A stretch of DNA of 50,264 nt from an uncultured Bacteroidia bacterium (lineage in GTDB: Bacteria > Bacteroidota > Bacteroidia > Bacteroidales > Prolixibacteraceae): positions 1 through 50,264 of the forward strand of contig CAIXCY010000139.1 in assembly GCA_903918045.1 (NCBI GenBank). Direction: 5' to 3'. Below are positions 2,546 to 26,128 of this stretch, in pieces (the stretch's first letter is position 1; every line of letters starts with the position of its first letter). The position numbers were made by a program, and so were the translations under genes. The notes under the pieces were generated by a model. That model saw only the letters and a program-made list of their open reading frames with translations, did not search any database and was not told the origin of the DNA.

Positions 2546-2578
2546 TTATTCCGTGATCCCCTTCCACGTTTTAGCAGT
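2546..2578 (-). pseudogene. Relic of an acetylesterase 3' end (possible attachment-site copy)
   Basis: Read on the - strand, these bases give TAKTWKGITE followed by a stop. The last 22 bases (2546-2567) match the last codons and stop of the intact esterase at 20992-21013 at 21 of 22 positions, in the same frame and orientation. The frame is closed just upstream of the relic, so no gene remains here. The two copies flank the whole fructan locus as direct repeats. Confidence 0.55.
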
Positions 2579-2668
2579 TTAAAGAAAACTGAAAAGGATA
2601 AAAATAGTATTAAAATCAAACCCTACCCAATTACTATTAACAAATCACTAAACTGCTAATCTGGATAT

Positions 2669-2754
2669 GTAACATGTATTACAAATTGTAACATGGGTTA
2701 TATCATTTTATCAAAAGCAGGTAGATGTATCATTTGTGCTAGCAATGGTAACAT
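2669..2754 (+). promoter_or_regulatory. Three GTAACAT repeats upstream of the fructan operon promoter
   Basis: GTAACATG occurs at 2669-2676 and again at 2688-2695, with starts 19 bases apart. A third GTAACAT is at 2748-2754. They lie 30-115 bases upstream of a good -7 box and 75-160 bases before the symporter start. Repeated half-sites in this position are what the AraC-type output domain of a hybrid two-component regulator would be expected to use. Assignment to the regulator at 17899-20706 is inference from position and repeat structure. Confidence 0.4.
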
Positions 2755-2783
2755 AGGTAGACGGTATTTCCTCAATTGGGGAA

Positions 2784-2791
2784 TAGCTTTG
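2784..2791 (+). promoter_or_regulatory. Bacteroides-type -7 box (TAGCTTTG) of the fructan operon
   Basis: TAGCTTTG matches the Bacteroidota sigma-ABfr -7 consensus TAnnTTTG exactly and lies 35 bases before the symporter ATG. I see no convincing -33 TTTG element about 19-21 bases further up. This fits a promoter that depends on an activator bound at the upstream GTAACAT repeats. The box is short, so a chance match is possible. Confidence 0.45.
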
Positions 2792-2826
2792 TGAACTCAA
2801 ATTAAATAAACCAAACAAAAGTTAAA

Positions 2827-4182
2827 ATGAACACAAACAACAGAGCCTCTTTAAATGCCCTTGTAATTGCCCTCGGAGGATTTTTATTCGGATTTGATAT
2901 AGCTGTCATCTCCGGAACTACCGCAGCCCTGGAGGCTTTATTTCACCTGTCTAAATCTGAACTTGGTTTTACAGTTGCAATTGCTTTAATAGGGACTATT
3001 ATAGGTACAACTATTATTGGAAAGCCAAGCGATAAATTTGGCCGGCGGAAAACGCTTCAGGGAATGGCCCTCATATTTACTGTTGCAGCCATTGGAAGCG
3101 CAAGTTCACTTAATTGGAGTATGCTTTTATTTTTCCGCTTTATTCAGGGGTTAATCGTTGGAGGAGTATCGGTAGTGGTTCCGATGTATATTGCCGAGAT
3201 TTCTCCGGCAAAGATCCGTGGAAAGCTTGTTGCCTTTAATCAGTTTAACGTAGTGACGGCAATTTTAGTGGCTTATCTTTCCAACTATTTTATTGCAAAA
3301 CTTATCTCGCCCGATGCATGGCGCACAATGATTGCCGTCGAAGCAATTCCGGCTTTGCTTTTCTTTTTACTGTTATTTAAAGTGCCGGCAAGCCCAAGAT
3401 GGTTGCTGTTGAAGAATATGCCACAGGAAGCAAAAGAAGTATTTACCCACCTTGGATTTGAAAATCCTGATTTGGAAGTAACTCAGATATTAGATTCTCT
3501 GAATGAGGATCATACAGAAACAAGTACAACACTATTCAGCAAGGAGCATTCATTTCCTGTAATCTGCACGATATTGATTGCCATGTTTAATCAGTTGGCA
3601 GGGATCAATGCTATTATCTATTATGCCCCCCGAATTTTTGAATTGACCGGACTGACAGCCAATACGGCTTTACTTCAATCCATAGCAATAGGCGGGACCA
3701 ACCTTTTATTCACGCTGCTTGCATTATTTCTGATTGATCGGGTAGGACGCAGAACATTGTTGATGGTTGGATCAGTCGGAATGATTGTTTTTCTGAGTTT
3801 GATCTCACACGCTTTTTATCAATCCGCATTCAATGGTTATTCTGTGATGGTATATCTGATTGGATTTATTGCATTTTTTGCGATATCGCAAGGGGCTGTT
3901 TTATGGGTATTTATTTCTGAGATTTTCCCCAATAAAATAAGATCAAAAGGACAGGCATTAGGCAGTTTTACCCATTGGGTGATGGCTGCTGCCGTTAGCT
4001 GGACATTTCCAATTGTGACAAATTCACCAGCAATTGGGGCAGGAGCCATCTTCGCATTTTTTGCCTTTATGATGGCGCTTCACTTTGTCTTTGCCTGGAA
4101 AGTAATACCCGAGACCAAGGGGAAATCCCTGGAACAGATTCAACTTGAATTGACTGAGAAAAGAAATAAAATCAAAAACTAG
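2827..4182 (+). CDS. MFS sugar:proton symporter (sugar porter family), probably fructose
   Basis: This is an inner-membrane transporter of 451 residues with about 12 hydrophobic segments. Sugar-porter hallmarks are visible: GGFLFGFDIAVISG in the first segment, a GR(R/K)-type loop (KFGRRK), the RFIQGLIVGG segment followed by PMYIAEISPAKIRG, DRVGRR after segment 8, and the C-terminal PETKGKSLEQIQ. The family moves free hexoses with protons. Its position next to a fructokinase and the fructan uptake genes points to fructose. It is the first gene after the putative promoter. It is followed after 6 bases by the kinase, so the two are almost certainly co-transcribed. Fructan loci of Bacteroides thetaiotaomicron also carry an inner-membrane sugar transporter beside a fructokinase. 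Confidence 0.88.
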   Translation: MNTNNRASLNALVIALGGFLFGFDIAVISGTTAALEALFHLSKSELGFTVAIALIGTIIGTTIIGKPSDKFGRRKTLQGMALIFTVAAIGSASSLNWSMLLFFRFIQGLIVGGVSVVVPMYIAEISPAKIRGKLVAFNQFNVVTAILVAYLSNYFIAKLISPDAWRTMIAVEAIPALLFFLLLFKVPASPRWLLLKNMPQEAKEVFTHLGFENPDLEVTQILDSLNEDHTETSTTLFSKEHSFPVICTILIAMFNQLAGINAIIYYAPRIFELTGLTANTALLQSIAIGGTNLLFTLLALFLIDRVGRRTLLMVGSVGMIVFLSLISHAFYQSAFNGYSVMVYLIGFIAFFAISQGAVLWVFISEIFPNKIRSKGQALGSFTHWVMAAAVSWTFPIVTNSPAIGAGAIFAFFAFMMALHFVFAWKVIPETKGKSLEQIQLELTEKRNKIKN

Positions 4183-4188
4183 GTAGTC

Positions 4189-5097
4189 ATGAAAAAGAAT
4201 GATAAGGTTTTATGTTTTGGAGAAGTGTTGTGGGACAATCTTCCAACGGGACCCCTTCCTGGTGGAGCTCCCATGAATGTAGCACTTCATTTATCGCGCT
4301 TTGACATTAATTCAACAATCGCAAGCAGCGTAGGAAACGATCCCAAAGGAGAAAGTCTCAAAGATTTCCTTGCAGAATCAGGGCTTGGCACGGATCTGAT
4401 CCAGGTTCACGAAACGTTGCCAACAAGTGAAGTTTTGGTGTATCTTGATGAGCATAATACTGCAACTTATGAAATCTGCGAGCCTGTGGCCTGGGACGAA
4501 ATCATGTTGACTCAGGAATTAATTGAAGAAGTAAAAACTTCAAAAGCAATTGTCTTCGGATCACTGGCGTCGCGTAACCAGACAACCCGGAATACGCTGA
4601 ATGAGTTGTTAAATAATGACATTCTTAAAATTATGGATGTCAACCTCAGACCCCCCTTTGATACGGAAGAGATTGTTAAAAATCTTCTTGCAAAGTCAGA
4701 TATTGTAAAAATGAACGATGAAGAACTTATGACAATCTCAGAGTGGTATCAACTGTCAGGAACATTGGATGAACGGATAATTTCATTTTCCGGATTATTA
4801 AATCTCACAATGCTTATAGTCACAAAAGGAAAAAATGGGGCATCTGTACTTCACATGAATCAACTTTATAAACACGATGGATATAAAGTAATCACGGCAG
4901 ATTCAGTTGGCGCTGGTGACGCCTTTCTTGCCGGATTTCTTGCTGCATTATTTGAGGGGAAGGAGATTTCACGCGCCTTAAAGGAGGCCAGTGCAATTGG
5001 TGCATATGTCGCATCCCAATCAGGCGCAACACCATTGTATTCTAAAGAGATTATTTGCGACATAACTATAAATGATAAACAGATAAGGAGTATCTAA
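4189..5097 (+). CDS. PfkB-family fructokinase
   Basis: This is a cytosolic sugar kinase of 302 residues, typical for the family. It shows the N-terminal PfkB signature GGAPMNVALHLSRF near residues 24-37 and the second signature with the catalytic GAGDAFLAG loop near residue 240, whose Asp is the general base. The reaction is ATP-dependent phosphorylation of fructose, probably at O6, feeding glycolysis. The start ATG lies 6 bases after the symporter stop. Other PfkB kinases (ribokinase, KDG kinase) share these motifs. The choice of fructose rests on the FGEVLWDNLPTGPLPGGAP N-terminus, common in fructokinases, and on the surrounding fructanase genes. Confidence 0.87.
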   Translation: MKKNDKVLCFGEVLWDNLPTGPLPGGAPMNVALHLSRFDINSTIASSVGNDPKGESLKDFLAESGLGTDLIQVHETLPTSEVLVYLDEHNTATYEICEPVAWDEIMLTQELIEEVKTSKAIVFGSLASRNQTTRNTLNELLNNDILKIMDVNLRPPFDTEEIVKNLLAKSDIVKMNDEELMTISEWYQLSGTLDERIISFSGLLNLTMLIVTKGKNGASVLHMNQLYKHDGYKVITADSVGAGDAFLAGFLAALFEGKEISRALKEASAIGAYVASQSGATPLYSKEIICDITINDKQIRSI

Positions 5098-5194
5098 TAT
5101 CAAAAATAATTTATGAATTATCAGAAACAGAATTTTGATTTCAATTATAACTGCATACATAAACCAATGAATTTTAATTATTTAATTAACAAAA

Positions 5195-8100
5195 ATGTCT
5201 AACATGAAAAAAATGATCACATGCTATCTGCGGGGTGTCCTTTGGGGCATCGTATTTCTTTGCCTGCCATTTATGGTTTTGGCGCAAGAAATTTCTGTGA
5301 AAGGATCCGTAAAAGATGCTACAAACGGGGAATTGCTTACCGGAGTAACAATCTTGGTGGAAGGTACGACAAACGGTACAACATCCAATATTGATGGTAC
5401 TTTCCAAATTAAAGTACCATCAAAGAATAGTGTATTAGTTTGTTCCTATTTGGGGTATAATTCTCAGAAATTCAACATCCAGGGAAGGAGTGAAATCAAA
5501 GTTCAATTGGTTCAGACTCTGGCACAACTGGATCAAGTGGTAGTTACAGGTTATCAGAGTCAGAAGAAGGCCGACTTAACAGGTGCTGTTTCTGTTGTTT
5601 CAATGAAAGAGCTACAGAAGATGCCAAATAATAACCCTATCCAGGCTTTACAGGGTATGGTTCCCGGGATGGTTATAACAACCGACGGATCACCCAGTGG
5701 CAGCAATGTAAATATAAATATTCGGGGTATAGGTTCAATTAACGGGACAAATCCCTTGTATGTTATTGACGGAGTCTCAACCACTGCTGGAATGCATGAA
5801 TTGAATCCGAATGATATTGAATCAATTCAGGTTCTTAAAGATGCTTCTGCCTCATCTATTTATGGATCAAGAGCTTCAAACGGTGTAATTATTATTACCA
5901 CAAAAAAAGCAAAAAAAGGAGTATTGCAAATTAATGCATCAGCTCACGGAGGCTATTCATTCTATAATACAAAGATGAGTGTTCTTGATGCACAAGGCTA
6001 TGGAAAAGCAGTTTGGCAGGCGAGTGCAAATGATGGGACTCCATTGAGCCATTATCTCGATTACGGCTTTAATACAGGTTATGACAGTAAAGGAAATCCG
6101 GTACTTAATAAAATTACTTTGCCAACTTATGTTGATACCACCAAACAAACAATGAAGACTGCAAATACTGATTGGTTTAAAGCAATCTCTCAGGTGGCCA
6201 TTTCACAAAATTATGATGTCTCGGTATTACATGGCACAGACAAGGGTAATTCGATGTTCTCTCTTGATTATACAGATAATAAAGGAATTGTAAAGACAAC
6301 TGAGTTTAAACGTATTACAGCTCGTTTAAATACTGATTATAAGTTATTGAATAATAAATTATTAGTTGGTGAAAATTTCACTATGAGTACCACTTCCGAG
6401 GTCCAGGATCCAGGGGTTCTGAATGCTGCTTTACAAGCTTTACCAATTATTCCAGTACATACAATTGACGGAATTGGATGGGGAGGCCCATTCGGCGGAA
6501 TGAACGATCGTCAGAATCCGGTTAGAATTCTTCAGGACAACAAACAGAACCATTACAATTATCTAAGATTGTTCGGAAATGCCTTTGCGGATCTTGAGGT
6601 TATTAAGAATCTTCATTTGAAAACGAGTTTAGGTGTTGATTATGGTGATTATTATAAACGGGATATGCAACTCTCCTATGTTTCAGGATATCTGAATAAT
6701 CCGATAAGCAGTGTTCAGGACAATACCTTTCATACTTTGAAACTGACATGGACCAATACTTTGAATTATCAGTTGCAATGGGGTAAAAATGTTCTGGATG
6801 CAGTCGCAGGAACTGAAATATATAAAGAAACATCCGAAAATTTTTGGGCAAGGCGACAAGTTTTCGCAAGCCAGGATCCCAATTATATGTACCTTGATGC
6901 AGGTACCGGATTAAAGGATAATGGAGGTTCCGCGGTTGAATATAGACTATTATCCTATTTTGGAAAAGTTAATTACGTGTTTGATCAAAAATATCTGGCC
7001 TCAGCGACATTTAGATATGACGGTTCTTCAAGGTTTGGTGCAAATAATAAATTTGGATTCTTTCCTGCATTTAACCTGGGCTGGAGACTAAACAAAGAAA
7101 ATTTCATTAAGGATAATATCAATTTTCTTTCAGATCTTAAATTGAGATACGGATGGGGTAGGACTGGTAGTCAGGATTACATTAATGCAACTGCAAGCAA
7201 GCAACTTTATCAGACCAATTATTCCGGAGGTGATCCTACGTGGCGTTCTCCCGATGGAACAGCTTACGATATTTCAGGTTCCAAAACCGGAACTCTTCCG
7301 TCAGGTTACCAAATTACACAAAGAAGTAATGATGATCTTAAATGGGAAGCAACAACGCAGTCAAATTTCGGGCTGGACTTTGGATTGTTTGACCAGAAAA
7401 TATATGGATCACTTGATTACTTTACTAAAACTACTACCGGTATGCTTGTGCAGCCAGCCTACCTTGCTGTTATTGGAGAAGGTGGTTATAGGTGGACAAA
7501 CGGTGCAAGCATGGAAAACAAAGGGACTGAATTTATAATAGGATATCGGGGTAAAATAGGGGCTGATTTGTCTTTCGATTTCACAGGTAATATCGCAACT
7601 TACAGAAATAAAATCACCTCTCTACCTTCATCTGTTGTTAATACTTATGGCGGAAATGGAACAACAGATAATATTTTGGGACATCCATGGGGGTCAGGAT
7701 ATGGCTATGTAGCCGATGGACTCTTTAAAACCAGGGATGAAGTGGCTAATTCAGCGGAACAATTAGGCAAGGGACTAGGCCGAATCCGGTACAAAGACCT
7801 GAATGGGGATGGGATTATTGATTCAAGAGATCAAACCTGGATTCTTAATCCTACTCCTGATTATACTTATGGTCTTAATTTGAATTTCGAATATAAAGGA
7901 TTTGATTTGACAATCTTCTTTCAGGGTGTTGGTCATATCGATGAGAATGTTTATGGAGTTAAATCCATGACTGATTTCTGGAGTATTAACGAAACCGGAT
8001 CTAATAAGGGTACACGTTTAATGGATGCATGGACTCCAACAAATTCAAAATCCACAATTCCATCATTGACAAGCACAGACAGGAACAATGAAACCAGGTT

Positions 8101-8338
8101 CTCAACCTATTTTATTGAGAATGGTTCCTATGCCAAATTGCGTAACCTGCAGATTGGTTATACAATTCCAAAGCGATTTACGGACAAAATCTCACTGAGC
8201 AATCTCTATATTTATATAAGCGGCCAAAATCTACTGACCATAAAAAGCAAAAGCTTTACCGGAGTAGATCCTGAAATACCAACTTATGGCTATCCTATCC
8301 CTACCATGTTAACAGCAGGAGTCAAGGTAGCATTTTAG
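5195..8338 (+). CDS. susC: SusC-like TonB-dependent outer-membrane glycan importer
   Basis: This is a 1047-residue outer-membrane receptor. After a signal peptide ending at VLAQ come a carboxypeptidase-regulatory-like domain (about residues 34-110, VKGSVKDATNGELLTGVTI) and the TonB-contact region LDQVVVTGYQ. A plug domain follows (NPIQALQGMVPGM, INIRGIGSINGTNPLYVIDGV, LKDASASSIYGSRASNGVI), then a long beta-barrel ending GVKVAF. With SusD it imports oligosaccharides using TonB energy. A second in-frame ATG at 5204 is equally plausible as a start. The 97-base gap after the fructokinase has no clear terminator or promoter, so read-through from the upstream promoter is likely. The fructan substrate is inferred from neighbours. 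Confidence 0.95.
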   Translation: MSNMKKMITCYLRGVLWGIVFLCLPFMVLAQEISVKGSVKDATNGELLTGVTILVEGTTNGTTSNIDGTFQIKVPSKNSVLVCSYLGYNSQKFNIQGRSEIKVQLVQTLAQLDQVVVTGYQSQKKADLTGAVSVVSMKELQKMPNNNPIQALQGMVPGMVITTDGSPSGSNVNINIRGIGSINGTNPLYVIDGVSTTAGMHELNPNDIESIQVLKDASASSIYGSRASNGVIIITTKKAKKGVLQINASAHGGYSFYNTKMSVLDAQGYGKAVWQASANDGTPLSHYLDYGFNTGYDSKGNPVLNKITLPTYVDTTKQTMKTANTDWFKAISQVAISQNYDVSVLHGTDKGNSMFSLDYTDNKGIVKTTEFKRITARLNTDYKLLNNKLLVGENFTMSTTSEVQDPGVLNAALQALPIIPVHTIDGIGWGGPFGGMNDRQNPVRILQDNKQNHYNYLRLFGNAFADLEVIKNLHLKTSLGVDYGDYYKRDMQLSYVSGYLNNPISSVQDNTFHTLKLTWTNTLNYQLQWGKNVLDAVAGTEIYKETSENFWARRQVFASQDPNYMYLDAGTGLKDNGGSAVEYRLLSYFGKVNYVFDQKYLASATFRYDGSSRFGANNKFGFFPAFNLGWRLNKENFIKDNINFLSDLKLRYGWGRTGSQDYINATASKQLYQTNYSGGDPTWRSPDGTAYDISGSKTGTLPSGYQITQRSNDDLKWEATTQSNFGLDFGLFDQKIYGSLDYFTKTTTGMLVQPAYLAVIGEGGYRWTNGASMENKGTEFIIGYRGKIGADLSFDFTGNIATYRNKITSLPSSVVNTYGGNGTTDNILGHPWGSGYGYVADGLFKTRDEVANSAEQLGKGLGRIRYKDLNGDGIIDSRDQTWILNPTPDYTYGLNLNFEYKGFDLTIFFQGVGHIDENVYGVKSMTDFWSINETGSNKGTRLMDAWTPTNSKSTIPSLTSTDRNNETRFSTYFIENGSYAKLRNLQIGYTIPKRFTDKISLSNLYIYISGQNLLTIKSKSFTGVDPEIPTYGYPIPTMLTAGVKVAF

Positions 8339-8384
8339 TTGAACAGGTTAATTCTAAAATCACATTAAGTTAAAAATAAAGATT

Positions 8385-10076
8385 ATGAAAAATATATTAT
8401 TACTCATCCTTTCCATTGCAGTGTTAAGCTCCTGCAATAAGGATTTCCTAAATGTTTCACCGAAGGCTCAATTGAGTGAGGCACAGGTCTCAACTGGGCC
8501 AGAACAATTGGTCTATGCCGCTTATGCAGAGTTGGGGAACGATCATTATATGACTCCTAACAGTCTGTGGCCATATGGAAATGTGAGGTCAGGAGATGCC
8601 TATAAAGGTGGACGTGACGAAGCCGACATCCAGGAATTCTATTTCATGGAAATCTTTAAAAGTGTCAGAAGTGATATCGGTCAATATGATGGTCAATGGT
8701 TTCAGTACTATGTTGCGCTATCGCGAATAAATGCAGCGCTTACAAACCTGAATAAATTATCCGATACCGATTTCCCGCTAAAGAAGGTCAGACAGGGCGA
8801 AATGCGCTTTCTGCGTGGCCATTTCTATTTCCAGCTAAAAATAATGTTTAAGAATATTCCATATATTGATGAGACGGTTAACACAAATGATTATCCGAAA
8901 ATTTCGAACGTAGTACTTAAAAATGATGAATTATGGGAAAAAATTGCTGCAGATTTTCAATTTGGACTTGATAATCTTCCTCCATCCCAATCTCAGATCG
9001 GAAGAGCCAACAAGATTGCTGCTGCAGCATATTTAGCAAAAGTAAGACTGTATCAGGCCTATGAACAGGATGATAAAAACAATGTAACAACAGTTAACCA
9101 AACAAAATTAACTCAGGTTGTAACCCTTGCAGATCAGGTTATTGGCTCCTCTTATCATCTTGCTCCCGATTTTGCAGATAACTTTATCCCTGGCTCAACA
9201 GAAAATGGACCGGAATCAATCTTTGCCATTCAATTCTCAAAAGATGATGGCACAATGTTTGGCAGGCTCAATTTTGGAGACGTTCTAGGTACTCCTCAGG
9301 GGATTGGTTGCTGTGATTTTCATAAACCAAGTCAAAACCTTGCAAATGCATTCAAAACTGGCTCTGACGGACTACCAATGTTTAGTGATTTTAACAATTC
9401 AGACCTGGACCTGAATTCAAATACTGTAGACCCCCGGTTGGATCATACAATTGCTATCCCTGGACATCCTTATAAATACGATCCTTCTACGATCTACCAG
9501 GTAAACTGGAATAGAACTCCAGATGTTTACGGCGTTTTTGCTTCATTGAAGGAAAATGTTCAGAAAGGTGCCTATACACAGGTAGGTCCATTTTACGCAA
9601 ACACGAAAAATAAAATCGTATTACGATATGCAGATGTATTACTCTGGAAAGCTGAGGCTTTGATTGAATTGGGCCGTCAGGCTGAAGCATTACCTCTGAT
9701 TAATCAAATTCGGACCAGAGCTGGAAATAGTACAGGCCTTCTTAAAATGGGAGGGGGGCAGTCCGTTTCAAATTATCATATTTCGACCTATGAAGACGGC
9801 GTAAATTGTAACTGGACACAGGATTTTGCCCGCAATGCCTTACGTTGGGAACGCCGGCTTGAATTCGCGATGGAAGGGAATAGATTCTTTGATTTAGTAA
9901 GATGGGGAATTGCCGATTCTTACCTGAATTCCTATTTCGCGACAGAAAAAACAAAGCGGAAATATCTTAAAGACGGTCTTTTCACTAAAAACAGGGATGA
10001 GTATTGTCCGATTCCTCTCAACCAGATTAGATTCAGCCATGACCTGTATAAACAAAACTATGGATACGTCCAGTAA
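8385..10076 (+). CDS. susD: SusD-like surface glycan-binding lipoprotein
   Basis: The protein has 563 residues and a lipoprotein signal (AVLSSC, Cys17). It has the SusD/RagB pattern: an N-terminal NKDFLNVSPKAQLSE segment, TPR-like helices with MRFLRGHFYFQLK near residue 145, and the C-terminal family block ALRWERRLEFAMEGNRFFDLVRWG. It forms the lid of the SusC channel and binds the incoming oligosaccharide on the cell surface. It lies 46 bases after SusC in the usual order. Nothing looks truncated. Confidence 0.95.
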   Translation: MKNILLLILSIAVLSSCNKDFLNVSPKAQLSEAQVSTGPEQLVYAAYAELGNDHYMTPNSLWPYGNVRSGDAYKGGRDEADIQEFYFMEIFKSVRSDIGQYDGQWFQYYVALSRINAALTNLNKLSDTDFPLKKVRQGEMRFLRGHFYFQLKIMFKNIPYIDETVNTNDYPKISNVVLKNDELWEKIAADFQFGLDNLPPSQSQIGRANKIAAAAYLAKVRLYQAYEQDDKNNVTTVNQTKLTQVVTLADQVIGSSYHLAPDFADNFIPGSTENGPESIFAIQFSKDDGTMFGRLNFGDVLGTPQGIGCCDFHKPSQNLANAFKTGSDGLPMFSDFNNSDLDLNSNTVDPRLDHTIAIPGHPYKYDPSTIYQVNWNRTPDVYGVFASLKENVQKGAYTQVGPFYANTKNKIVLRYADVLLWKAEALIELGRQAEALPLINQIRTRAGNSTGLLKMGGGQSVSNYHISTYEDGVNCNWTQDFARNALRWERRLEFAMEGNRFFDLVRWGIADSYLNSYFATEKTKRKYLKDGLFTKNRDEYCPIPLNQIRFSHDLYKQNYGYVQ

Positions 10077-10129
10077 TGGGTTCAATTTGTCAGATAACTT
10101 TTAAATGGTTTATTATAAAACAAGAAACA

Positions 10130-11539
10130 ATGAAAAACAGATATAATTATATCATATTATTGGGTTTTTTTATCTCGATAATAAGTTGCCAGAAGCGCGA
10201 TATTGTAAGCATTCCTACCAAACTGGCAGCAATATCCAATCTCCAATATTCGTTAGCAGGGGACACTGTTACACTCACATGGAGTTTGCCACCAGTGAAG
10301 GACACCTTGAACGTAACAGTGAATGATGGTGTTACATCAATACCTTTAAACATAAAATCAACATCATTTAAATATGGGATTGTTGAGACAAATAAAGAAT
10401 ATGGTTTTACAATTAAGGTGAGTGATAACAATGGAAATACTTCACTCGGCCAAACACTGCGGTTTACACGTGATGGAGCCTCCCCAGTTAAAAATGTGAG
10501 CGCCATTCAAAATGACAATGGTGTATTAATTTCATGGAGTGTTCCTGATCAGCCTGTTACCAAAATTGAGGTAAAAATCGGTGACAAGACAATCGACCTT
10601 GGACCCACCATAACTTCGTGCCAGGTCAATGATCTACAGGCTGCAAAGTATATGATCAGCATTGTGACGACCAACAGTGCCAACAAAGTCTCAAATACGG
10701 TTTATCTGCCATTCAAAGTTGGGGCAACAATGGTCGGTTACTTAGGTGTTTACGCTGACTCAACAGCCTTTCTTGCAAATGGTGACGATGATGAGATTGC
10801 CGGAGGAAAATGGCTTTTCAAAAATTATCCTAAATCAAGGTACATTTCATTTGATCAGATTAAAAATGGTTCTGTCGATTTAACCCAAATTCGTGTAATC
10901 TGGTGGAACTTTGATGTCGTGGCAGGACATGCTTTACCTGCTATAACTACTGACCCTACTGTTGTATCAAACATGACCCAATATTATAAAAACGGAGGTA
11001 ACTTACTTCTTAACCAATACGCAATCCAGTATTTCTGGACCTTAGGCCGAATTACGCAAAACTATTTTATGGGTTTTGATGAAGGTCCCGGAGGTTTTAA
11101 TCCAGATGTATGGGGTATCGGTGTTAATATTCACCAAAAACATGACCAAAGTGGCCACCCACTGTACAAAGGGATTACAATGACAACGCAACCTGATGGT
11201 AGAATTACATTCCCTGTAATTGGATCAGGATGGAAGGAAAATCATAACGCAGTAATAATCAGAATTCCTGAGTTTGAAGGTGGATTACCCAATGACAGTG
11301 AAACAGCCTATACGAAGTTTGTAAACGACAACAATGCAGTCTGGCTTGGAATGTGGGATGGTATTGGAGATTATTGGATGGCAGGAGTACTCGAATTTAA
11401 GCCAAAGGATGATTTCCAGGGTTCTGGAATTTTTATCGGAATCGGTGGAATTGAGTGGCATCAAAATACTGGAAATGCTTATCAGGCGAATATTGAACTG
11501 ATGTATAAGAACGCCATTGATTACTTGAAAACAAAATAA
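10130..11539 (+). CDS. Surface glycan-binding lipoprotein, DUF4960-type (SusE/F position)
   Basis: The frame is open from 10076, but the ATG at 10130 gives a clean lipoprotein signal (MKNRYNYIILLG, IISC, Cys20), so I use that start. The protein then has 469 residues. Two fibronectin-III-like segments come first (about 30-125 and 125-205, e.g. VTLTWSLPPVKDTL, GVLISWSVPDQPV). A C-terminal domain follows with VGYLGVYADSTAFLANGDDDEIAGGKWLF and IRVIWWNFDV. This layout fits the DUF4960 protein next to SusD in the B. thetaiotaomicron levan locus (BT_1761-like), which binds fructan at the surface. It is non-catalytic. Its function here is by analogy; I cannot compare sequences directly. Confidence 0.75.
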   Translation: MKNRYNYIILLGFFISIISCQKRDIVSIPTKLAAISNLQYSLAGDTVTLTWSLPPVKDTLNVTVNDGVTSIPLNIKSTSFKYGIVETNKEYGFTIKVSDNNGNTSLGQTLRFTRDGASPVKNVSAIQNDNGVLISWSVPDQPVTKIEVKIGDKTIDLGPTITSCQVNDLQAAKYMISIVTTNSANKVSNTVYLPFKVGATMVGYLGVYADSTAFLANGDDDEIAGGKWLFKNYPKSRYISFDQIKNGSVDLTQIRVIWWNFDVVAGHALPAITTDPTVVSNMTQYYKNGGNLLLNQYAIQYFWTLGRITQNYFMGFDEGPGGFNPDVWGIGVNIHQKHDQSGHPLYKGITMTTQPDGRITFPVIGSGWKENHNAVIIRIPEFEGGLPNDSETAYTKFVNDNNAVWLGMWDGIGDYWMAGVLEFKPKDDFQGSGIFIGIGGIEWHQNTGNAYQANIELMYKNAIDYLKTK

Positions 11540-11545
11540 ATTTTT

Positions 11546-11580
11546 AAGAGTCTTCCGGGGAACATCTTCGGAAGACTCTT
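11546..11580 (+). terminator. Hairpin between binding-protein gene and first fructanase gene
   Basis: AAGAGTCTTCCG at 11546-11557 pairs perfectly with CGGAAGACTCTT at 11569-11580, leaving an 11-base loop. It is preceded by five T and followed by ATTTAAATA rather than a clean T-run. It lies between the glycan-binding gene and the GH32 gene with no other promoter visible. It could be a partial terminator or an RNA-stabilising 3' end that sets SusCD levels above enzyme levels. Confidence 0.6.
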
Positions 11581-11597
11581 ATTTAAATATCCGGTAA

Positions 11598-13163: not shown

Positions 13164-13175
13164 ATAATAAAAGAA

Positions 13176-13682
13176 ATGGGAAGCCTAAAATTTACGTTAG
13201 TATTTTTTATTGTTTTATGGCAGGGTTTATGCCTGTCGACTAATATTTTCGCTCAAAAACCGGCAGAAACTATTCCCCATTTCAGTTTTACTAAACTTGA
13301 TAATACTCCATTTACAACTAAAAACCTTGCAGTTGGAAAAGATATGCTTTTTGTTTTCTTCGATGTTACCTGTGATCATTGCAAAGAGACCATTAGTTCA
13401 TTAAGTAAACGCCTAAAAGAGTGCAATCGTGTTGCAATTTATCTGATTACGTTGGATGATAAACCTCAGATATCCACATTTCTGACTCAGCATGGACCGA
13501 ATCTGTCAAAAGAGAAGAATGTAACTATTTTAAGAGATAAAAAGGACCAGTTTATTACACTTTTTGGACCCCGAAAATACCCATCGGTGTTTTTATATTC
13601 CAGGGAAAAGAAATTATTACTCTATGATGATCAGGACTTAAAGCTTGAAAAATTCTTTCACATAATTCTTTCAACGAAATGA
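13176..13682 (+). CDS. Exported thioredoxin-like (TlpA/redoxin-type) protein with CDHC site
   Basis: This small protein of 168 residues has a Sec signal (IFAQ, about residue 27) followed by a thioredoxin-fold segment. The strand DMLFVFFDVTCDHCKETI carries a CxxC active site, Cys66-Asp-His-Cys69. A possible cis-Pro comes later in RKYPSVFLYS. It should sit in the periplasm and could reduce or exchange disulfides, or it may be a degenerate member. It starts 12 bases after GH32-1, and its stop overlaps the start of the next gene (ATGA, 13679-13682). It is therefore translationally tied to the LamG-GH32 protein. I know no standard role for a redoxin in fructan use. A folding or repair helper for the neighbouring exported enzymes is a guess. 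Confidence 0.75.
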   Translation: MGSLKFTLVFFIVLWQGLCLSTNIFAQKPAETIPHFSFTKLDNTPFTTKNLAVGKDMLFVFFDVTCDHCKETISSLSKRLKECNRVAIYLITLDDKPQISTFLTQHGPNLSKEKNVTILRDKKDQFITLFGPRKYPSVFLYSREKKLLLYDDQDLKLEKFFHIILSTK

Positions 13683-16225
13683 TTAAGACTGAAAATAATA
13701 TTCGGCAATTAAATGGTATTCTCCTTTTAATTTTGCTTTTATTTTCACAATGTGTTATAGCCCAGGATATCGCCAGATTTGATTTTGAAGATTTAAACGC
13801 CTCTTCGATAACTACTGAAAAAATATCAGGAGCTGTTTTTTCAGTATATAATCATTTCAATCACCCTGAAAGGATTTCGGGAATTCACGGTAACGCACTT
13901 CGATTAGATGGGTATTCAACATGGGCGGTTAACTCCACTTTGCAATTATCCGGCATTACGAACAAGATTACAGTTTCAGCCTGGTATGCAACAGAAGCTT
14001 TCAACAAAGAAACCGGAGCAATAATAAGTCAGATTGATGGATTATCGGGCTTTGCTTTAGAGGTAGGATCCTATGGAAATATTGGATTGACCTATTTCAT
14101 CGACGGGATAAAGAAAAATCTGCAATCTGTTCAAAAAATTGAGAAGTATACGTGGAATTACATCGTGGCAAGAATTGACCTTGAGAATTCAAAGGCACAA
14201 TTATTTGTTAACGGTGTTGAATGGGCTTCCAATAATTATGTCGTCGGGAATAAAATAACCCTTGGTTCTGCCGCTTTATACTTGGGAAGACATAATAATG
14301 ACATCAGAAATGACGGTTTTTTGTTAACCGCATTGAATGGAGCAATCGATGACGTGGTTATTTCAAAAGATATCCTCAGCAATTCTCAGATATTAAGCAA
14401 CTTTCAGCAAAATAATACCCTCGTTCCCAATCTCACCATTAATCCGGACCTACGGTATGCAGGAGATTATTTCAGACCTCAATTTCATGCAATTCCAAAT
14501 TCAAGCTGGACAAACGAGCCATACGGCCTGATTTTTTATAACGGGAAATACCATCTTTTTTTTCAAAAAAATCCGAATAGCCCCACATTGTATTTCATGC
14601 ACTGGGGACATTTAACAAGCAGCGACCTGGTTAACTGGACGGAAGAAAAAATAGTTCTCGCTCCCTCTTCCGGCTTTGATAGTTTTGGTATTTGGTCCGG
14701 ATCTACTATTCTTGGACCAAACAATACCCCAAAGATAATCTTCACAGGTGTTGATGGTGTTAAAGCCGGAATCGGAACCGCTGATCCTTTGGATGAGCAA
14801 TTACAAGGGTGGGAAAAGAATAGTTTAAATCCAATAATTCCCAATGCGCCTGCCAGCTCTCCGAATATGGATTTCAGAGACCCTTTTGTCTGGAAATCGG
14901 GGGATTATTATTACATGATTGTTGGTTCCGGTATTAAAAACAACCTGGGAGGCATCCTGTTTACCTTCAAATCGAAAGATCTTGTTCAATGGACGGAAAT
15001 TAGTCCGGTTTATTACAGTTCATCTGTCAACGATTCCGGGATCTTTTGGGAAATGCCATTCTTTATCCCAATGAGCAGTTCGAATGAATATATGTTAGGA
15101 GTTACACCGGTACCAACTCCAGGCTTTCCTGCCCAAACAATCTATTGGATTGGCAAATGGGAAAATGAGACATTTACTCCGTCTTTTTCAATTCCCAAAA
15201 ATCTAGAACTTATTAATGGTCACTTGCTGTCACCAGCATTCAATTTTGATACTTCAGGAAGGGCAACTTATCTTGGAATCATCCCCGAAGAGAGAGATGC
15301 TGCATCTCAAATTCAGGGTGAATGGCGTCATTTATTTAGTTTACCCCGTGCCATCCGCTTACTGAATGACTCCTCAATAGGTCAGGTTCCACATCCCAAT
15401 CTATGCCGGTTAAGGGATACGCCTGTCTCAATTTCCAAAAGAGTGATTACCCCAGGAACAGGGAATAACATTCCTGAAATCCAGGGAGTACAGTCGGAGT
15501 TTTCATTTCAGATAAAGGCCGATGAATCCTCGAAATTTTCAATTCAGGTCTATAAAAATACATCTGGTTCTGAGTTCACCACCTTGTTCTTTGACCTTGC
15601 AAATAATAAAATTGCGTTGGACCGAACTCAGTCTTCATTACTATCAGGACCTGCTAAAGACTATAAATCAAGTGATTATATTTTCAATTATAAGGATACA
15701 CTATTTGTTGATGTTTTTCTTGATCATTCTACCCTTGAGGTGTTTGTGGATAAAATAACCGTTTTTTCATGCAGGGTCTATCCTTCAGCAAAAGAAAGCA
15801 ACAATGTCGATTTGATAGTAAACAGCGGTAAAGCTGAAATAATTTGGCTGGATGCCTGGAATATGAAGAAAATGGGGGATGTATCTACTCAAGATATATG
15901 TGAGCAGCCAAATTTACCTTCTCAATTCAGGAAAGTTGAGATTACAACCGGTATTCCAGATATCGTTGACAATAGATTAGAAATGAGATTGTATCCTAAT
16001 CCAGCCAAGCAAAAAATCAACCTTGAATTCGATCAGAATCAATCTGGTAAGATCCAAATTATGGTTTGTGACATACTGGGAAGGGCGGTCTTGAACAAAA
16101 CAATAAATTTCCTGGAGAATTCCCTGTATACACTTGATATCTCAATGCTTAATGCTGGAATATATGTTTTAAAAGCCGATGGTGAAAAACAGTATAAACC
16201 TCTCAGAATCGTTAAATCAAATTAA
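13679..16225 (+). CDS. LamG-GH32-T9SS modular fructanase with altered nucleophile motif
   Basis: This is an 848-residue exported protein. After a signal (VIAQ, about residue 29) comes a LamG/concanavalin-like domain (about 30-240), then a GH32 propeller and sandwich (about 265-745). A type IX secretion sorting domain occupies about 770-848 (RLYPNPAKQKINLEF, then DISMLNAGIYVLKADG). It should be secreted across the outer membrane and attached or released. In the GH32 domain the usual NDPNG is SWTNEPYG, so Glu280 stands where the nucleophile Asp normally is. The other two motifs persist as FRDPF (Asp401) and WEMP (Glu458, Met replacing Cys). It may be an extracellular endo-fructanase, a fructosyltransferase or a binding-only derivative. 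It overlaps the redoxin gene by 4 bases. Confidence 0.88.
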   Translation: MIKTENNIRQLNGILLLILLLFSQCVIAQDIARFDFEDLNASSITTEKISGAVFSVYNHFNHPERISGIHGNALRLDGYSTWAVNSTLQLSGITNKITVSAWYATEAFNKETGAIISQIDGLSGFALEVGSYGNIGLTYFIDGIKKNLQSVQKIEKYTWNYIVARIDLENSKAQLFVNGVEWASNNYVVGNKITLGSAALYLGRHNNDIRNDGFLLTALNGAIDDVVISKDILSNSQILSNFQQNNTLVPNLTINPDLRYAGDYFRPQFHAIPNSSWTNEPYGLIFYNGKYHLFFQKNPNSPTLYFMHWGHLTSSDLVNWTEEKIVLAPSSGFDSFGIWSGSTILGPNNTPKIIFTGVDGVKAGIGTADPLDEQLQGWEKNSLNPIIPNAPASSPNMDFRDPFVWKSGDYYYMIVGSGIKNNLGGILFTFKSKDLVQWTEISPVYYSSSVNDSGIFWEMPFFIPMSSSNEYMLGVTPVPTPGFPAQTIYWIGKWENETFTPSFSIPKNLELINGHLLSPAFNFDTSGRATYLGIIPEERDAASQIQGEWRHLFSLPRAIRLLNDSSIGQVPHPNLCRLRDTPVSISKRVITPGTGNNIPEIQGVQSEFSFQIKADESSKFSIQVYKNTSGSEFTTLFFDLANNKIALDRTQSSLLSGPAKDYKSSDYIFNYKDTLFVDVFLDHSTLEVFVDKITVFSCRVYPSAKESNNVDLIVNSGKAEIIWLDAWNMKKMGDVSTQDICEQPNLPSQFRKVEITTGIPDIVDNRLEMRLYPNPAKQKINLEFDQNQSGKIQIMVCDILGRAVLNKTINFLENSLYTLDISMLNAGIYVLKADGEKQYKPLRIVKSN

Positions 16226-16252
16226 ATCTAACATATTAAAATTCAAAAGATT

Positions 16253-17818
16253 ATGAATAGATGTATGCTTTTTTATTTAATATTTTTGTCTATTATTACT
16301 CTTTCATGTAATACCTCAAATTCTACTGAGAAACTTTTTAATGAACGACATAGACCTCAGGTGCATTTTTCGCCAGCTGGAAATTGGATGAATGATCCCA
16401 ATGGCCTTGTATTTTTTGAAGGTGAGTATCATCTTTTCTATCAGTATTATCCGGATGCGAAGGTTTGGGGTCCCATGCATTGGGGACATGCAATAAGTAC
16501 CGATCTGGTTCATTGGCAACATCTTCCAATTGCCTTGTATCCTGATAGTTTAGGATATATTTTTTCAGGAAGCGCTGTAATCGATTATAAGAATACATCG
16601 GGATTGGGAAAACCCGAGAAACCGGCAATGATTGCAATCTATTGTTACCATTCGCCAGTTCTTGAAAAAGCGGGAAAAAATAATTTTCAAACCCAGGGGA
16701 TGGCCTTTAGTCTTGACAAAGGGAGGACATGGACCAAATATTCCGGAAATCCGATTGTGCCGAATCTGGGAATTAGAGATTTCCGAGATCCTAAAGTATC
16801 ATGGAACGGAGAAATCAACAAATGGATTATGACCCTTGCTGCAGGCGATTGTGTCCGTTTCTATTCATCAGATGATTTGAAGAAATGGTCATTCGAAAGT
16901 GAATTTGGTAAGACATTCGGTGCACATGGAGGAGTGTGGGAATGCCCTGACCTAATAAAGATGCCTGTAAAGGGGAGTAATGGGGAATCAAAATGGGTAT
17001 TATTGGTCAGTATTAATCCTGGTGGCCCAAATGGGGGTTCTGCAACACAATATTTCACCGGCAATTTTGACGGACATCAGTTTACAGTGGATAACGAAAA
17101 GATCCGGTGGATTGATACTGGCAAGGATAATTATGCAGGGGTAACCTTTTCCGGTATTCCCGAAAATGATGGGAGATTCATCCTGATTGGGTGGATGAGC
17201 AACTGGCAATATGCGACCAATGTTCCTACTTCTCCCTGGCGTAGTGCAATGACATTCCCCCGGCAGATGACCTTAGTCCGGGAGGAAGGAGAATATGCGC
17301 TGATTTCTAATCCAGTTGAGGAGATTGAACAACTTAGAGAAAGAAAAGTTACAATAAGCCAATTTATTGCATCAAAAAAGAAGGATCTCACCAAAGAGGT
17401 TCCATTCGGATTAGCTACTATTGAAATTATAGCCGACTTTTCACTTCCTCAGTCAGGCACAACAAGTGAATTTGGATTTAATCTTTCAAACTCTAAAGGG
17501 GAGAACATAGAAATCGGGTACAATTGCCAGACAAAAAAATTCCTTATAAATAGAATAAATACAGGGGATTCTGAATTCTCAAGGGATTTTAAAGGAATTC
17601 ACTATTCTGATGAAGCGGTACCTGGAAAGACGATCTCAATGCATCTGATTGTAGACGTTGCTTCTGTTGAATTATTCGGTCAATCTGGTAAAATTGTGAT
17701 GACCGATATCTTTTTCCCCAATGAGGTCTTTAATAATTTAAGTGTCTATAGTAAAGTGGGATCCGTGGAATGTAAAAGTGTTACGCTCTACAAACTCAAT
17801 AACATCTGGAACCATTAA
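16253..17818 (+). CDS. GH32 fructanase lipoprotein 2
   Basis: The protein has 521 residues and a lipoprotein signal (ITLSC, Cys19). The catalytic triad is intact: WMNDPNG (Asp48), FRDPK (Asp179) and WECPD (Glu230), with the GAHGGVWECPD context shared with GH32-1. Compared with GH32-1 it has a longer insert after FSGSAVIDYKNTSG (the HSPVLEKAGKNN loop, about residues 133-146), near where propeller loops shape the active-site pocket. The two lipoproteins may therefore differ in chain-length or linkage preference. It is the last gene of the operon and starts 27 bases after the LamG-GH32 gene. The C-terminal beta-sandwich begins near residue 375. Confidence 0.93.
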   Translation: MNRCMLFYLIFLSIITLSCNTSNSTEKLFNERHRPQVHFSPAGNWMNDPNGLVFFEGEYHLFYQYYPDAKVWGPMHWGHAISTDLVHWQHLPIALYPDSLGYIFSGSAVIDYKNTSGLGKPEKPAMIAIYCYHSPVLEKAGKNNFQTQGMAFSLDKGRTWTKYSGNPIVPNLGIRDFRDPKVSWNGEINKWIMTLAAGDCVRFYSSDDLKKWSFESEFGKTFGAHGGVWECPDLIKMPVKGSNGESKWVLLVSINPGGPNGGSATQYFTGNFDGHQFTVDNEKIRWIDTGKDNYAGVTFSGIPENDGRFILIGWMSNWQYATNVPTSPWRSAMTFPRQMTLVREEGEYALISNPVEEIEQLRERKVTISQFIASKKKDLTKEVPFGLATIEIIADFSLPQSGTTSEFGFNLSNSKGENIEIGYNCQTKKFLINRINTGDSEFSRDFKGIHYSDEAVPGKTISMHLIVDVASVELFGQSGKIVMTDIFFPNEVFNNLSVYSKVGSVECKSVTLYKLNNIWNH

Positions 17819-17870
17819 AAACCTTCCTTTTAGGTAGAAAGTATCCTTGCTGATTCCGGTTTGGACTTCA

Positions 17871-17910
17871 AAAAATGGCTGACACTGAGAGACCAATGTC
17901 AGCCATTTTT
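17871..17910. terminator. Bidirectional terminator between fructan operon and its regulator
   Basis: AAAAATGGCTGACA (17871-17884) pairs with TGTCAGCCATTTTT (17897-17910) with no mismatch and a 12-base loop. A-rich bases on the left and T-rich bases on the right give a T-run in both directions. It lies between convergent genes and overlaps the last codons of the regulator on the - strand. Confidence 0.85.
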
Positions 17911-20706
17911 ATGGGTATTATTTTGTATAAATTCACTGGGAGAGATCTTCAGATAATCCTTAAAACTTTTCGAGAAATAGGAAGGGCTTGAAAAGCCGGT
18001 TTCGTAGGCTACTTCGGCAATTGATTTCCCACTCTCCTTCAACAATACAGTAGCTTTATTAAGCTTGATATTCCGGATGAATTCACTGACAGTAAGGCCG
18101 GTCAGGTGTTTTATTTTCCGGTAAACGTGGACGCGTGACAGACCTATTTCAACACTTAATTCCTCCACTCCATATTCCGGATTCTGGATATTTCGTTCTA
18201 TTGCCTTGATACACCGTTTCAGGAATGAATTATCCAGTTGTGACATTTTATTTTCTGAGCCACCTGGCAGTAACATGCTCTCCTGATAGTGTTTACGAAT
18301 CTTTTGCCGGATTTCGATAAGCTTTCTGACTCTCACAAGCAAGTGGTTGCTATTGAATGGTTTTGGCATGTAAGAATCAGCTCCGGTTTCCAATCCTTCG
18401 ATCTTCTCTTCCTGAGATGAACGAGCAGTAAGTAGGATTACAGGAATATGACAAATCTGGATATCTGATTTTAGCTTTTGGGTAAATTCCAGGCCATCCA
18501 TAACAGGCATCATTACATCGCAAATGATCAGGTCAGGTTCCTCCTGGTCAATTTTCTCAAGCGCCTCTTTCCCGTTTCCAGCCTCAATGATCCGATAATC
18601 ATTTAATAATGAATTTTTAATAAATTCCCGCACATCAGAATTGTCTTCTACAATTAATATGGTTAATTGCTCTTCAAAATTATTGTTGATCCGCGTAGTT
18701 TTCTCCTGCCCGGGTTTATCTGTTTTTACGGGCTCGTAAATTGTTTCAATTTGTCGTTCAACCCTATCATACTCCTTATCAGTAAGAATTATCTCATCCG
18801 TGTTGATATGGTCTTTACCAAGGCGGAGAAATACATAAAAGGAGGAGCCTTTACCTTTGGAACTTTCAACCGTCAGATCGCCTTTATGCAAATCAACAAA
18901 CCCTTTCGATAGGGCTAAGCCAACCCCGGTTCCTTCAATAATACGGTCAGATTGCTGATCCCCGCGATAAAAGATTTCAAAGATCCAGGCCAGTTGATTT
19001 TCGGATATTCCAATTCCATTATCCTTTACCGTTATTTTGATCGCATCACACAACTTGTCTTTAAATTGGTGTTTGCAGGTTTCGATCAGTAATTCTATCT
19101 TTCCTGAATCAGAAGTAAATTTAAATGCATTAGAAAGGAGGTTGAATAGAATTTTATCCACCTTATCTTTATCAAAAAGCAGATCCTGGTTTGCAAGTGC
19201 CGGTTTGAACTGATATTCAATATGTTTTTTGATTGCAAGTTCATCAAAAGACTCTTTTATTCCTTTCGTAAATTTTACGATATCATATAGTCCGGCATTT
19301 AGCTTCATTTTAGAATTGTCCATCCTTTGCAGGTCCATCAACTGGTTGATTAGCCGGAGCAGCCTGTTTGCGTTTCGATGCATCATCTGAAGTCTGTTTA
19401 ATAAATCGGGCGTAAGGCGTGAGTTATTCATGATATCTTCAAGAGGTCCTAAAATGAGGGTAAGCGGAGTCCTGAATTCATGGGAAATATTTGTAAAAAA
19501 CCGCAGTTTAGCTTGAGTAGCCTGTTCTAACTGAAAACTTATTCTTTTTAACTCCTCATTTTGGCGGATAATCTCTCTTGTCTGGGTTTCCAACTTGTTA
19601 TTTGCCAATTGTTTGTTTCGAAAAGCCCTGAATAATAAGGTAACAAGGATGATTACCAGAACCAGAGATACTAACGAAATAATCAGATAAATTTGCTGAC
19701 TGTAAAATCTTTGCAATTGCAAATCAAAGTTTTGTTTTGAGGAATCTATATTTTTATGAAGTGTAAGAATCTCCTCAGACTGAGATTTAATTGCCTGAAC
19801 ATTTGTTGAGTCGATAACCATTGTATTGAGGTCATTCTCCTTATAAAATGGTTTATTGTTAAGGATATCTGCTGCAAGGGAAATAGAAATCCTTCCTCCG
19901 GTGGGATAAAGTAAGGTTGCATCAAATTTCTTGTCGATAACCGCCTGAATACCTCCGTCAGTGCCAGGTAATCCATCAACTCCAATAATAAAAATATTCT
20001 TTTCTTTCTTTTGTTTAATATAGGAATTATAGGCTCCCATAGCCATGACATCGTTATGGGCATAGACCAAATCGAAACTAAGCTTCTGGGAAAGGGCTTC
20101 ATTCATGGTCTGCCAACCCCCTGAATATTCCCATTCCCCTGATTTGGATTTAACTATTTCAATATTGGGAAACTTCGAGATCTCATCGATAAAGCCATTG
20201 TGACGGTCTTTGGTTGGAGAAGAGCCCATTAATCCTTCTATCTCAAGAATCTTTCCTTCCCCTTTAAGCAACTTAACTGCGTATTTCCCGGCCGATTTAC
20301 CTATCTGATAATTATTGGCGCCGATAAATGCAGTATAATCTTCTGACTCTATTTTCCTGTCAATTAATACAACGGGTATTCCCTTTTTATAAACCTTCTT
20401 CACAATTGGAGTGAGAGGTTCCGATTCATTTGGAGAGACGATCAGCAGGTCAATATTTTGAGCAAGTAAATCGGTGATATCCTGAACCTGTTTTTGGCTA
20501 TTATTCTCTGCGTTCCTCGTAATTAGCTCAAGGTTAGGATAATACGTTAATTCATTTAACATCTCCAAAAGCATAGTCTTACGCCAGGAATCAGCATTGG
20601 TGCACTGAGAAAACCCGACTTTATATTTTCGAATTTGGGGGGTTTGCGAAAATGAAAAGTGTATGAGTAATGTAAATATAAGAGTTATAAATAACTGCTT
20701 TTTCAT
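17899..20706 (-). CDS. Hybrid two-component regulator with periplasmic sugar-binding sensor
   Basis: The protein has 935 residues. Domains in order: signal peptide (1-20), a periplasmic-binding-protein-like sensor (27-315, type I sugar-binding fold with KVGFSQCTNADSWR and HNDVMAMGAYNSYI), a membrane segment (340-360), a histidine kinase with His409 in NISHEFRTPL, an ATPase domain (N-box SNAFKF, DNGIGIS at 562-568, GTGVGLALS), a receiver domain with Asp730 in ICDVMMPVMDG, and a C-terminal AraC-type HTH (828-928). Most hybrid regulators use Reg_prop sensors. The ribose-binding-like sensor is the type found in the fructose-sensing BT1754 of B. thetaiotaomicron. It probably binds fructose in the periplasm and activates the operon at 2827-17818. 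Confidence 0.93.
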   Translation of the reverse strand: MKKQLFITLIFTLLIHFSFSQTPQIRKYKVGFSQCTNADSWRKTMLLEMLNELTYYPNLELITRNAENNSQKQVQDITDLLAQNIDLLIVSPNESEPLTPIVKKVYKKGIPVVLIDRKIESEDYTAFIGANNYQIGKSAGKYAVKLLKGEGKILEIEGLMGSSPTKDRHNGFIDEISKFPNIEIVKSKSGEWEYSGGWQTMNEALSQKLSFDLVYAHNDVMAMGAYNSYIKQKKEKNIFIIGVDGLPGTDGGIQAVIDKKFDATLLYPTGGRISISLAADILNNKPFYKENDLNTMVIDSTNVQAIKSQSEEILTLHKNIDSSKQNFDLQLQRFYSQQIYLIISLVSLVLVIILVTLLFRAFRNKQLANNKLETQTREIIRQNEELKRISFQLEQATQAKLRFFTNISHEFRTPLTLILGPLEDIMNNSRLTPDLLNRLQMMHRNANRLLRLINQLMDLQRMDNSKMKLNAGLYDIVKFTKGIKESFDELAIKKHIEYQFKPALANQDLLFDKDKVDKILFNLLSNAFKFTSDSGKIELLIETCKHQFKDKLCDAIKITVKDNGIGISENQLAWIFEIFYRGDQQSDRIIEGTGVGLALSKGFVDLHKGDLTVESSKGKGSSFYVFLRLGKDHINTDEIILTDKEYDRVERQIETIYEPVKTDKPGQEKTTRINNNFEEQLTILIVEDNSDVREFIKNSLLNDYRIIEAGNGKEALEKIDQEEPDLIICDVMMPVMDGLEFTQKLKSDIQICHIPVILLTARSSQEEKIEGLETGADSYMPKPFNSNHLLVRVRKLIEIRQKIRKHYQESMLLPGGSENKMSQLDNSFLKRCIKAIERNIQNPEYGVEELSVEIGLSRVHVYRKIKHLTGLTVSEFIRNIKLNKATVLLKESGKSIAEVAYETGFSSPSYFSKSFKDYLKISPSEFIQNNTHKNG

Positions 20707-20991
20707 TTAATAGTTAGTCGTTTGAGGAGTAAAGATAAAAAAATTAACAAGAACTTTGTTTTTAATCCTGAATATCGTTCCACGTCTTAAAGAACTGACT
20801 ATTGACGTATGTTAAGAACTTTCAACGTCCTAACTTATTCTTTGCTCTGCCGGATAACTGGCGTCGAAGAAAGGTTTTATTTCATAATTATGCATTATTT
20901 CAGTCACTTAGATATGATTTATAGGTTTTTGATCTAAGAGATTGAGAATATTCTTTTTAAAGTTCTCATTACGATCAACCATTCTATTCAT

Positions 20992-21013
20992 TTACTCCGT
21001 GATCCCCTTCCAC
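20992..21013 (-). repeat. 22-bp direct repeat, right copy (esterase 3' end)
   Basis: TTACTCCGTGATCCCCTTCC and the two bases after it match 2546-2567 with one mismatch (C/T at the fourth base). The stop codon aligns exactly. Identity ends on both sides just outside the repeat. Confidence 0.6.
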
Positions 21014-22941: not shown

Positions 22942-22985
22942 TTTGTTAGTTTTAATACGTTGATTAAAGTTGAGTTAAAAAATCT

Positions 22986-23078
22986 CATTGCCACCAAGGC
23001 ACCAAAACACCAAGGATCACCAAAAATATTGGTGTCCGCCGGCTGGCGGATTAGTGCTTTAGGGTTTTAGTGGCATTT
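22986..23078. repeat. Imperfect inverted repeat containing a TCCGCC palindrome
   Basis: ATTGCCACCAAGGCACCAAAACACCAA on the left is the imperfect reverse complement of the tail ending TTAGTGCTTTAGGGTTTTAGTGGCATTT. Inside lies the palindrome TCCGCCGGCTGGCGGA (23035-23050), one of three such sequences in the window. The repeat is between two - strand genes and has no coding potential. Confidence 0.6.
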
Positions 23079-23085
23079 CTTATTT

Positions 23086-25818: not shown

Positions 25819-25880
25819 TGATTGTTTTTTATGGCAGTTTATATTGTTTCTATCTGGATATTTAGAGTGTAGGCAATGTT

Positions 25881-26085
25881 CAACCCGCTTCGGGGTTGCG
25901 GCTTCTCGCTATTTACTTACCCCCGGTTCCGCAAGCTACACCGGGGGTTATTCAAATTTAACTCCTGCCGGAGTTAGCGAAAAATGGGAGACCAGGATAT
26001 AACATGTTTCTATATATTCCGGTGCTCTGCACCTTTCGACCATCTATCCCGATGATATTCTACAAATATCTTGCGGCTCTGCCGC
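25881..26085. repeat. Array of five short hairpins
   Basis: The 310-bp gap between GH78 and the GH95-like gene holds five perfect short stems: CAACCC/GGGTTG (25881-25898), ACCCCCGGT/ACCGGGGGT (25919-25948), AACTCC/GGAGTT (25960-25975), GGTGC/GCACC (26021-26033) and GCGGC/GCCGC (26073-26085). The stems differ from each other but have similar spacing and small loops. This recalls the compound REP-like repeats seen between Bacteroidota genes. No ORF or promoter stands out. Confidence 0.6.
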
Positions 26086-26128
26086 TTCCCAATGCACAAG
26101 ATTATGATTTCATTTATAAATAAAAAAT

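Follow-up and report, generated by a model that had tools for sequence, protein, structure and literature searches.

A fructan-use locus is inserted at the 3' end of a sialate O-acetylesterase-like gene in the window analysed here, a 50,264-nucleotide stretch of DNA from an uncultured Prolixibacteraceae bacterium (contig CAIXCY010000139.1 of assembly GCA_903918045.1; contig C139 of the 5.36-Mb draft genome G000, which comprises 281 contigs). The insertion is supported by sequence comparison with relatives in which the esterase gene is followed directly by its original neighbour, a gene for a protein of 697 amino acids (the 697 gene). The inserted block is bracketed by a 22-bp direct repeat of the esterase gene end, and we consider this repeat likely to be a scar left when two related glycan loci recombined by ordinary means, and not the work of a mobile-element enzyme.

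The two copies of the repeat, at 2546-2567 and 20992-21013, are identical at 21 of 22 positions and mark two esterase ends 18.4 kb apart. An earlier note on this DNA, which suggested site-specific integration of what could be a recently acquired cassette, had the coordinates, orientation and identity of the repeat right, and had also correctly placed the far copy (the orphan tail) outside any gene, with no open reading frame (ORF) of at least 90 amino acids covering 2546-2567. The block and its two ends are made up as follows.

250-2343, minus strand: 697 gene, no Pfam family, lipoprotein-like start by eye; adjoins the esterase on the right where the site is empty
2344-2545, no strand: original intergenic DNA downstream of the esterase, including a dispersed repeat, shared with empty sites in G002 and G014 (C236)
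2546-2567, minus strand: orphan tail, where the original (recipient) esterase ended (final codons with the stop); part of a 29/29 identity to G005 over 2541-2569
2568-2605, minus strand: what is probably left of a second 697-type gene's signal-peptide codons, sharing the tail's frame and now containing a stop (31/38 to G005)
2590-2619, minus strand: DNA that probably lay immediately before the second 697-type gene (28/30 to G005), overlapping 2568-2605
2667-20766, no strand: fructan-use locus proper, the outermost limits of DNA similarity to G014, G010 and G011
20767-20991, no strand: intergenic DNA separating regulator and esterase, unmatched in the 17 other genus genomes
20992-22941, minus strand: sialate O-acetylesterase-like gene (PF03629 SASA, by Pfam), its last 22 bp being the other repeat copy

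When the 22-bp pattern was searched with up to three mismatches, it was found in the window at these two places only (mean expected 0.00 in 100 shuffles) and at the same two places only in the whole 5.36-Mb genome. Coincidence, whether by chance or through a protein motif, can be practically discounted as the origin of the repeat. A WKG(I/V)TE-type end is conserved among the aligned esterases, which speaks for a motif, but the shuffles and the two sole occurrences in the genome reject a chance repeat. The alignment with empty sites refutes coincidence, since the orphan copy runs on into the original downstream sequence of the esterase.

This likeness of the orphan copy to esterase ends reaches beyond the 22 bp. 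Positions 2541-2569 are identical at all 29 positions to the esterase end and downstream bases of G005, while 2502-2567 shares 97% identity with G002 across its esterase end and the intergenic DNA downstream, and 2502-2566 is 97% identical to the empty site on contig C236 of G014. These relatives are draft genomes, drawn from 18 genus genomes including G000 (17 others); G014 has an estimated contamination of 4%. The esterase and the 697 gene were searched across 61 genomes, with distances between them taken between match ends, so that true gaps are slightly shorter where a match begins within the gene. The 697 gene is present in 11 of the 18 genus genomes, and in eight of these (G002, G004, G006, G007, G010, G013, G014 on C236, and G016) the two matches lie 16-203 bp apart. 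The empty site that the earlier note proposed to look for, an esterase 3' end followed by the 697 gene, is therefore present in relatives, with a single copy of the core. The distance is 1,058 bp in G011, 8,724 bp in G005 and 18,648 bp in the window. In G002 and G014 (C236) the sequence that follows the esterase stop shares 97% identity with the sequence beyond the orphan tail, whereas the intergenic DNA of the other six empty sites is different from the window's. Since the far tail continues into the original downstream sequence, the orphan tail marks where the original esterase ended, still at its old position, and the fructan block is an insertion.

Part of the shared intergenic DNA (2373-2525) is a dispersed repeat, CGCAGAG-rich and partly self-complementary, with 33 matches listed in the own genome, including the query itself and an inverted self-match; it also occurs within the G002 empty site and, in shorter form, in that of G014 (C236). 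The longer gaps in relatives hold other DNA. In G005 (C115, L072; 1492-10209) a different 8.7-kb cargo occupies the same slot, without a second esterase tail, and consists of a TPR protein and a 1951-amino-acid protein with fn3 and type IX secretion system (T9SS) tail domains. The 1,058-bp gap of G011 (C14, L067) seemingly holds two small genes, one of them helix-turn-helix regulator-like by eye.

The DNA adjoining the orphan tail bears on how the far join was made. Positions 2568-2605 match the first codons of the G005 697-type gene at 31 of 38 positions (score 41), the best other score being 33 when 4.67 Mb of fetched sequence was scanned on both strands (loci that overlap entered more than once; copies of the window were excluded) and 28 in 300 shuffles. 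With the tail included, 2554-2605 matches G005 at 43 of 52 columns, and the reading frame is the same, with TIFILFSFL*TAKTWKGITE* in the window and IFILFSCLQTTKTLKG in G005. A further run, 2590-2619, agrees at 28 of 30 positions with the DNA immediately preceding that G005 gene (score 50, against a maximum of 35 among 300 shuffles). In the window the two matches overlap, whereas in G005 they stand 138 bp apart, which points to a deletion between similar short runs. We read 2568-2605 as probably the truncated 5' end of a 697-type gene. The start of the G005 697-type gene and the G005-type esterase tail share the microhomology ACGT-GAAGGGG (11/12). Within these bases, the original esterase, whose truncated end would be the orphan tail, was probably joined to the start of a second 697-type gene that arrived with the fructan block.

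Mosaic patterns are found in the genes on both sides. The esterase genes are mosaic, the window's being 95-97% identical to that of G014 (C236) over positions 151-600 and 79-91% thereafter. The 697 gene of the window changes its nearest relative along its length, and the 697 gene on G014 C208 is 74-90% identical to the C236 copy, then 100% across the final 126 bp of C208. G014 also carries the fructan locus in the same slot and in the window's orientation, its regulator adjoining an esterase (C276) and its porter adjoining a 697 gene (C208); only one tail is present there, on what are two unlinked contigs.

These observations are consistent with the following course of events. The ancestor would have had the order esterase, intergenic DNA, 697 gene, as relatives show. 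This site would have recombined with a related block in which an esterase, the fructan locus and a second 697-type gene followed one another; the block order is seen in G014 (over two contigs), which may represent the donor type. The G014 copy itself was rejected as the direct donor, as its intergenic DNA differs from the window's on both sides. The esterase side would have been joined by homology, as the mosaic esterase genes suggest, and at the far side the join would have fallen within ACGT-GAAGGGG, bringing the opening codons of the second 697-type gene up against the closing codons of the original esterase; these would have stayed behind as the orphan tail, giving the site two esterase ends.

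The second join could have been made either at DNA uptake, by homology-facilitated illegitimate recombination, or by later deletion between tandem blocks, with the same result. In the latter variant of the same explanation, a tandem arrangement of esterase, fructan locus and 697-type gene followed by esterase and 697 gene would have collapsed between the short ACGT-GAAGGGG repeats, and the orphan tail would be what remains of the second esterase. This variant has the merit of making the right-hand junction in one event, and the microhomology at the junction fits it, as do the tandem esterases of G014 (C313, L076), which have protein identities to the window's of 75% and 91%, the latter over the first 155 residues only because the gene is cut by the contig end. 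Two full tandem blocks are on none of the fetched contigs, however, and the window genome has a single 697-gene match; we regard the variant as possible, at somewhat less than even chances. Homology-facilitated illegitimate recombination is reported to join one end by homology and the other illegitimately, and to insert DNA that has no counterpart in the recipient (PMC3240628). The window would resemble that process in having one homologous and one illegitimate end around DNA without a recipient counterpart. It differs in scale, the insert being about 18 kb and inferred from sequence alone where PMC3240628 speaks of small linear DNA molecules, and a tandem-block deletion would look alike.

Several points weigh against this account. 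An additional deletion of 138 bp relative to G005 has to be assumed. A shared 12-mer with at most one mismatch turned up by chance in 5 of 500 shuffles, and there is none with the G002-type tail, so that the microhomology requires a recipient with a G005-type tail, yet the downstream intergenic DNA is G002/G014-like. The match to G005 was chosen from several targets after the fact. When the 697 gene and its G005 version were searched in 140 family genomes (E <= 1e-50), 18 genomes gave 22 matches, and among these 22 loci, the window's own aside, that of G005 alone fits the scar (17 other genomes have such genes); the junction step thus depends on one relative. G005 is without a close fructan locus (best porter match 45%), so the donor itself has not been seen. 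The G014 evidence stands on separate contigs of a draft with 4% contamination, and the 100% stretch on C208 could be assembly overlap. Over the first 300 bp compared, the 697 gene of the window is not simply C236-type (84, 82 and 71% identity to C236; 89, 79 and 83% to C208). On the esterase side, the intergenic DNA at 20740-20995 matched only itself in the 18 genus genomes, and the crossover was not located there.

Tyrosine recombinases integrate genomic islands at the 3' ends of genes, and the window resembles such islands in the position at a gene 3' end and in the direct repeat. The 22-bp core could on this basis be an attachment site, with the recombinase acting in trans or later lost and the two tails representing attL and attR. 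Direct repeats are present at both ends, one of them completing the target gene, so that a regenerated gene end accompanies the insertion, and the empty site carries the original downstream sequence, all of which such integration would give. The window nevertheless departs from these islands in three respects. No recombinase was found by Pfam among the 10 of 10 inserted genes scanned, short overlapping ORFs lying outside the scan, a result that upholds the remark in the earlier note that no integrase is visible. The core was not found with other copies of the cargo: with up to four mismatches allowed in 18 bp, no copy was present in the G010 (C308, C330) and G011 (C12) stretches, G010 C711 being outside the scan, which also took in G014 C276 and C208. 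Finally, G014 fills the same slot with one tail and no repeat, the very circumstance (on two unlinked contigs) that the earlier note had named as counting against itself. An attachment site also does not predict a 697-type gene start beside the orphan tail and in frame with it. Integrase-type site-specific integration was rejected on the absence of a recombinase, the lack of a core with other locus copies and the one-tailed G014 site, and we give it very little weight.

The locus itself is not confined to this site. A regulator at least 84% identical is present in four of the 18 genus genomes (G000, G014, G010 and G011), the next best among the 61 genomes being 51%. In G010 and G011 the locus lies at other sites than the window's, where the regulator adjoins a small gene without a Pfam family and different genes stand on the other side. 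No core copy accompanies it there in the stretches scanned.

The block is indeed more AT-rich than both sides, as had been noted from a few lines of sequence, with a GC content of 0.384 inside (2568-20991) against 0.443 (250-2545) and 0.463 (20992-28822). The genome has a mean GC content of 0.417 over 20 sampled stretches, and among 78 windows of 5 kb sampled from it, 5 have 0.385 or less. By third-position GC, eight of the 10 inserted genes fall in the lowest 6% of 216 reference ORFs (porter at 12.5%, regulator at 17.6%), and the four flanking genes measured are in the highest 15%. The locus has a GC content of 0.371-0.386 in pieces from all four carriers, with neighbours at 0.374-0.395 at the G011 site. 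As G014, G010 and G011 are equally AT-rich, the contrast stems from the locus itself and from the GC-rich genes beside it, and not from recent import; import from outside the genus on the strength of GC was rejected on the same ground. The description of the cassette as recently acquired also fails on divergence, the locus DNA differing by 12-25% between carriers.

Identity to the window over the locus ranges from 84-88% in G014 and 84-86% in G010 to 75-78% in G011. For the regulator DNA it is 84.8% in G014, 85.3% in G010 and 74.7% in G011, and for the porter-kinase-SusC DNA 87.5%, 86.1% and 77.7%, respectively. The corresponding values for the surroundings of rpoB (4.5 kb; 3.4 kb in G010) are 90.8%, 87.3% and 88.0%. 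The G010 and G014 loci are slightly closer to one another (regulator 87.4%, porter-kinase-SusC 87.9%) than either is to the window. Because G010 and G014 are closest although G014 alone shares the window's slot, a single shared insertion is not shown, and the slot insertions in G000 and G014 may be independent.

As the earlier note stated, a fructan locus with its regulator lies between the repeat copies. The 10 genes, assigned by Pfam, are as follows.

2827-4182, plus strand: sugar porter (PF00083)
4189-5097, plus strand: PfkB-type sugar kinase, probable fructokinase
5195-8338, plus strand: SusC-like outer-membrane transporter
8385-10076, plus strand: SusD-like glycan-binding protein
10076-11539, plus strand: DUF4960/DUF4945 protein with fn3 domain
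11598-13163, plus strand: GH32 enzyme
13176-13682, plus strand: AhpC/TSA (redoxin)-like protein
13679-16225, plus strand: GH32 enzyme with laminin-G-type domain and T9SS sorting tail
16253-17818, plus strand: GH32 enzyme
17899-20706, minus strand: hybrid two-component regulator with periplasmic binding domain

With a SusC/SusD pair, GH32 enzymes, a PfkB-type kinase and a dedicated regulator, the inserted genes are, by predicted gene content, a conventional Bacteroidota fructan-use locus. The fructan locus of Bacteroides thetaiotaomicron, with a SusC/SusD pair, GH32 enzymes, a sugar kinase and a hybrid two-component regulator, is alike in all of these; unlike it, the window has a redoxin-like protein and a GH32 enzyme with a laminin-G-type domain and T9SS tail. 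Among the 80 of 382 loci listed, the nearest named records to the regulator are metagenome-assembled genomes labelled Prolixibacteraceae and Bacteroidia, and the Bacteroides and Phocaeicola matches are 36-40% identical to it. A fructan polysaccharide utilization locus is described for B. thetaiotaomicron in PMC5967196.

We would extend the argument only tentatively to the slot as a whole. Within this genus, the esterase-697 gap could serve a rhamnosidase-bearing glycan locus as a recombination slot, in which cargo is swapped in and out by way of the homologous esterase and 697 genes and no integrase takes part; its cargoes would then be the fructan locus in G000 and G014, the TPR protein with the 1951-amino-acid T9SS-tail protein in G005, and the 1-kb insert in G011. 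Recombination as the likely source of the repeat would mean that a complete sugar-use locus can change place by way of neighbouring gene ends and leave a direct repeat that mimics the work of an integrase. Repeats of gene ends should accordingly not be taken as attachment sites before empty sites and neighbouring genes have been compared.

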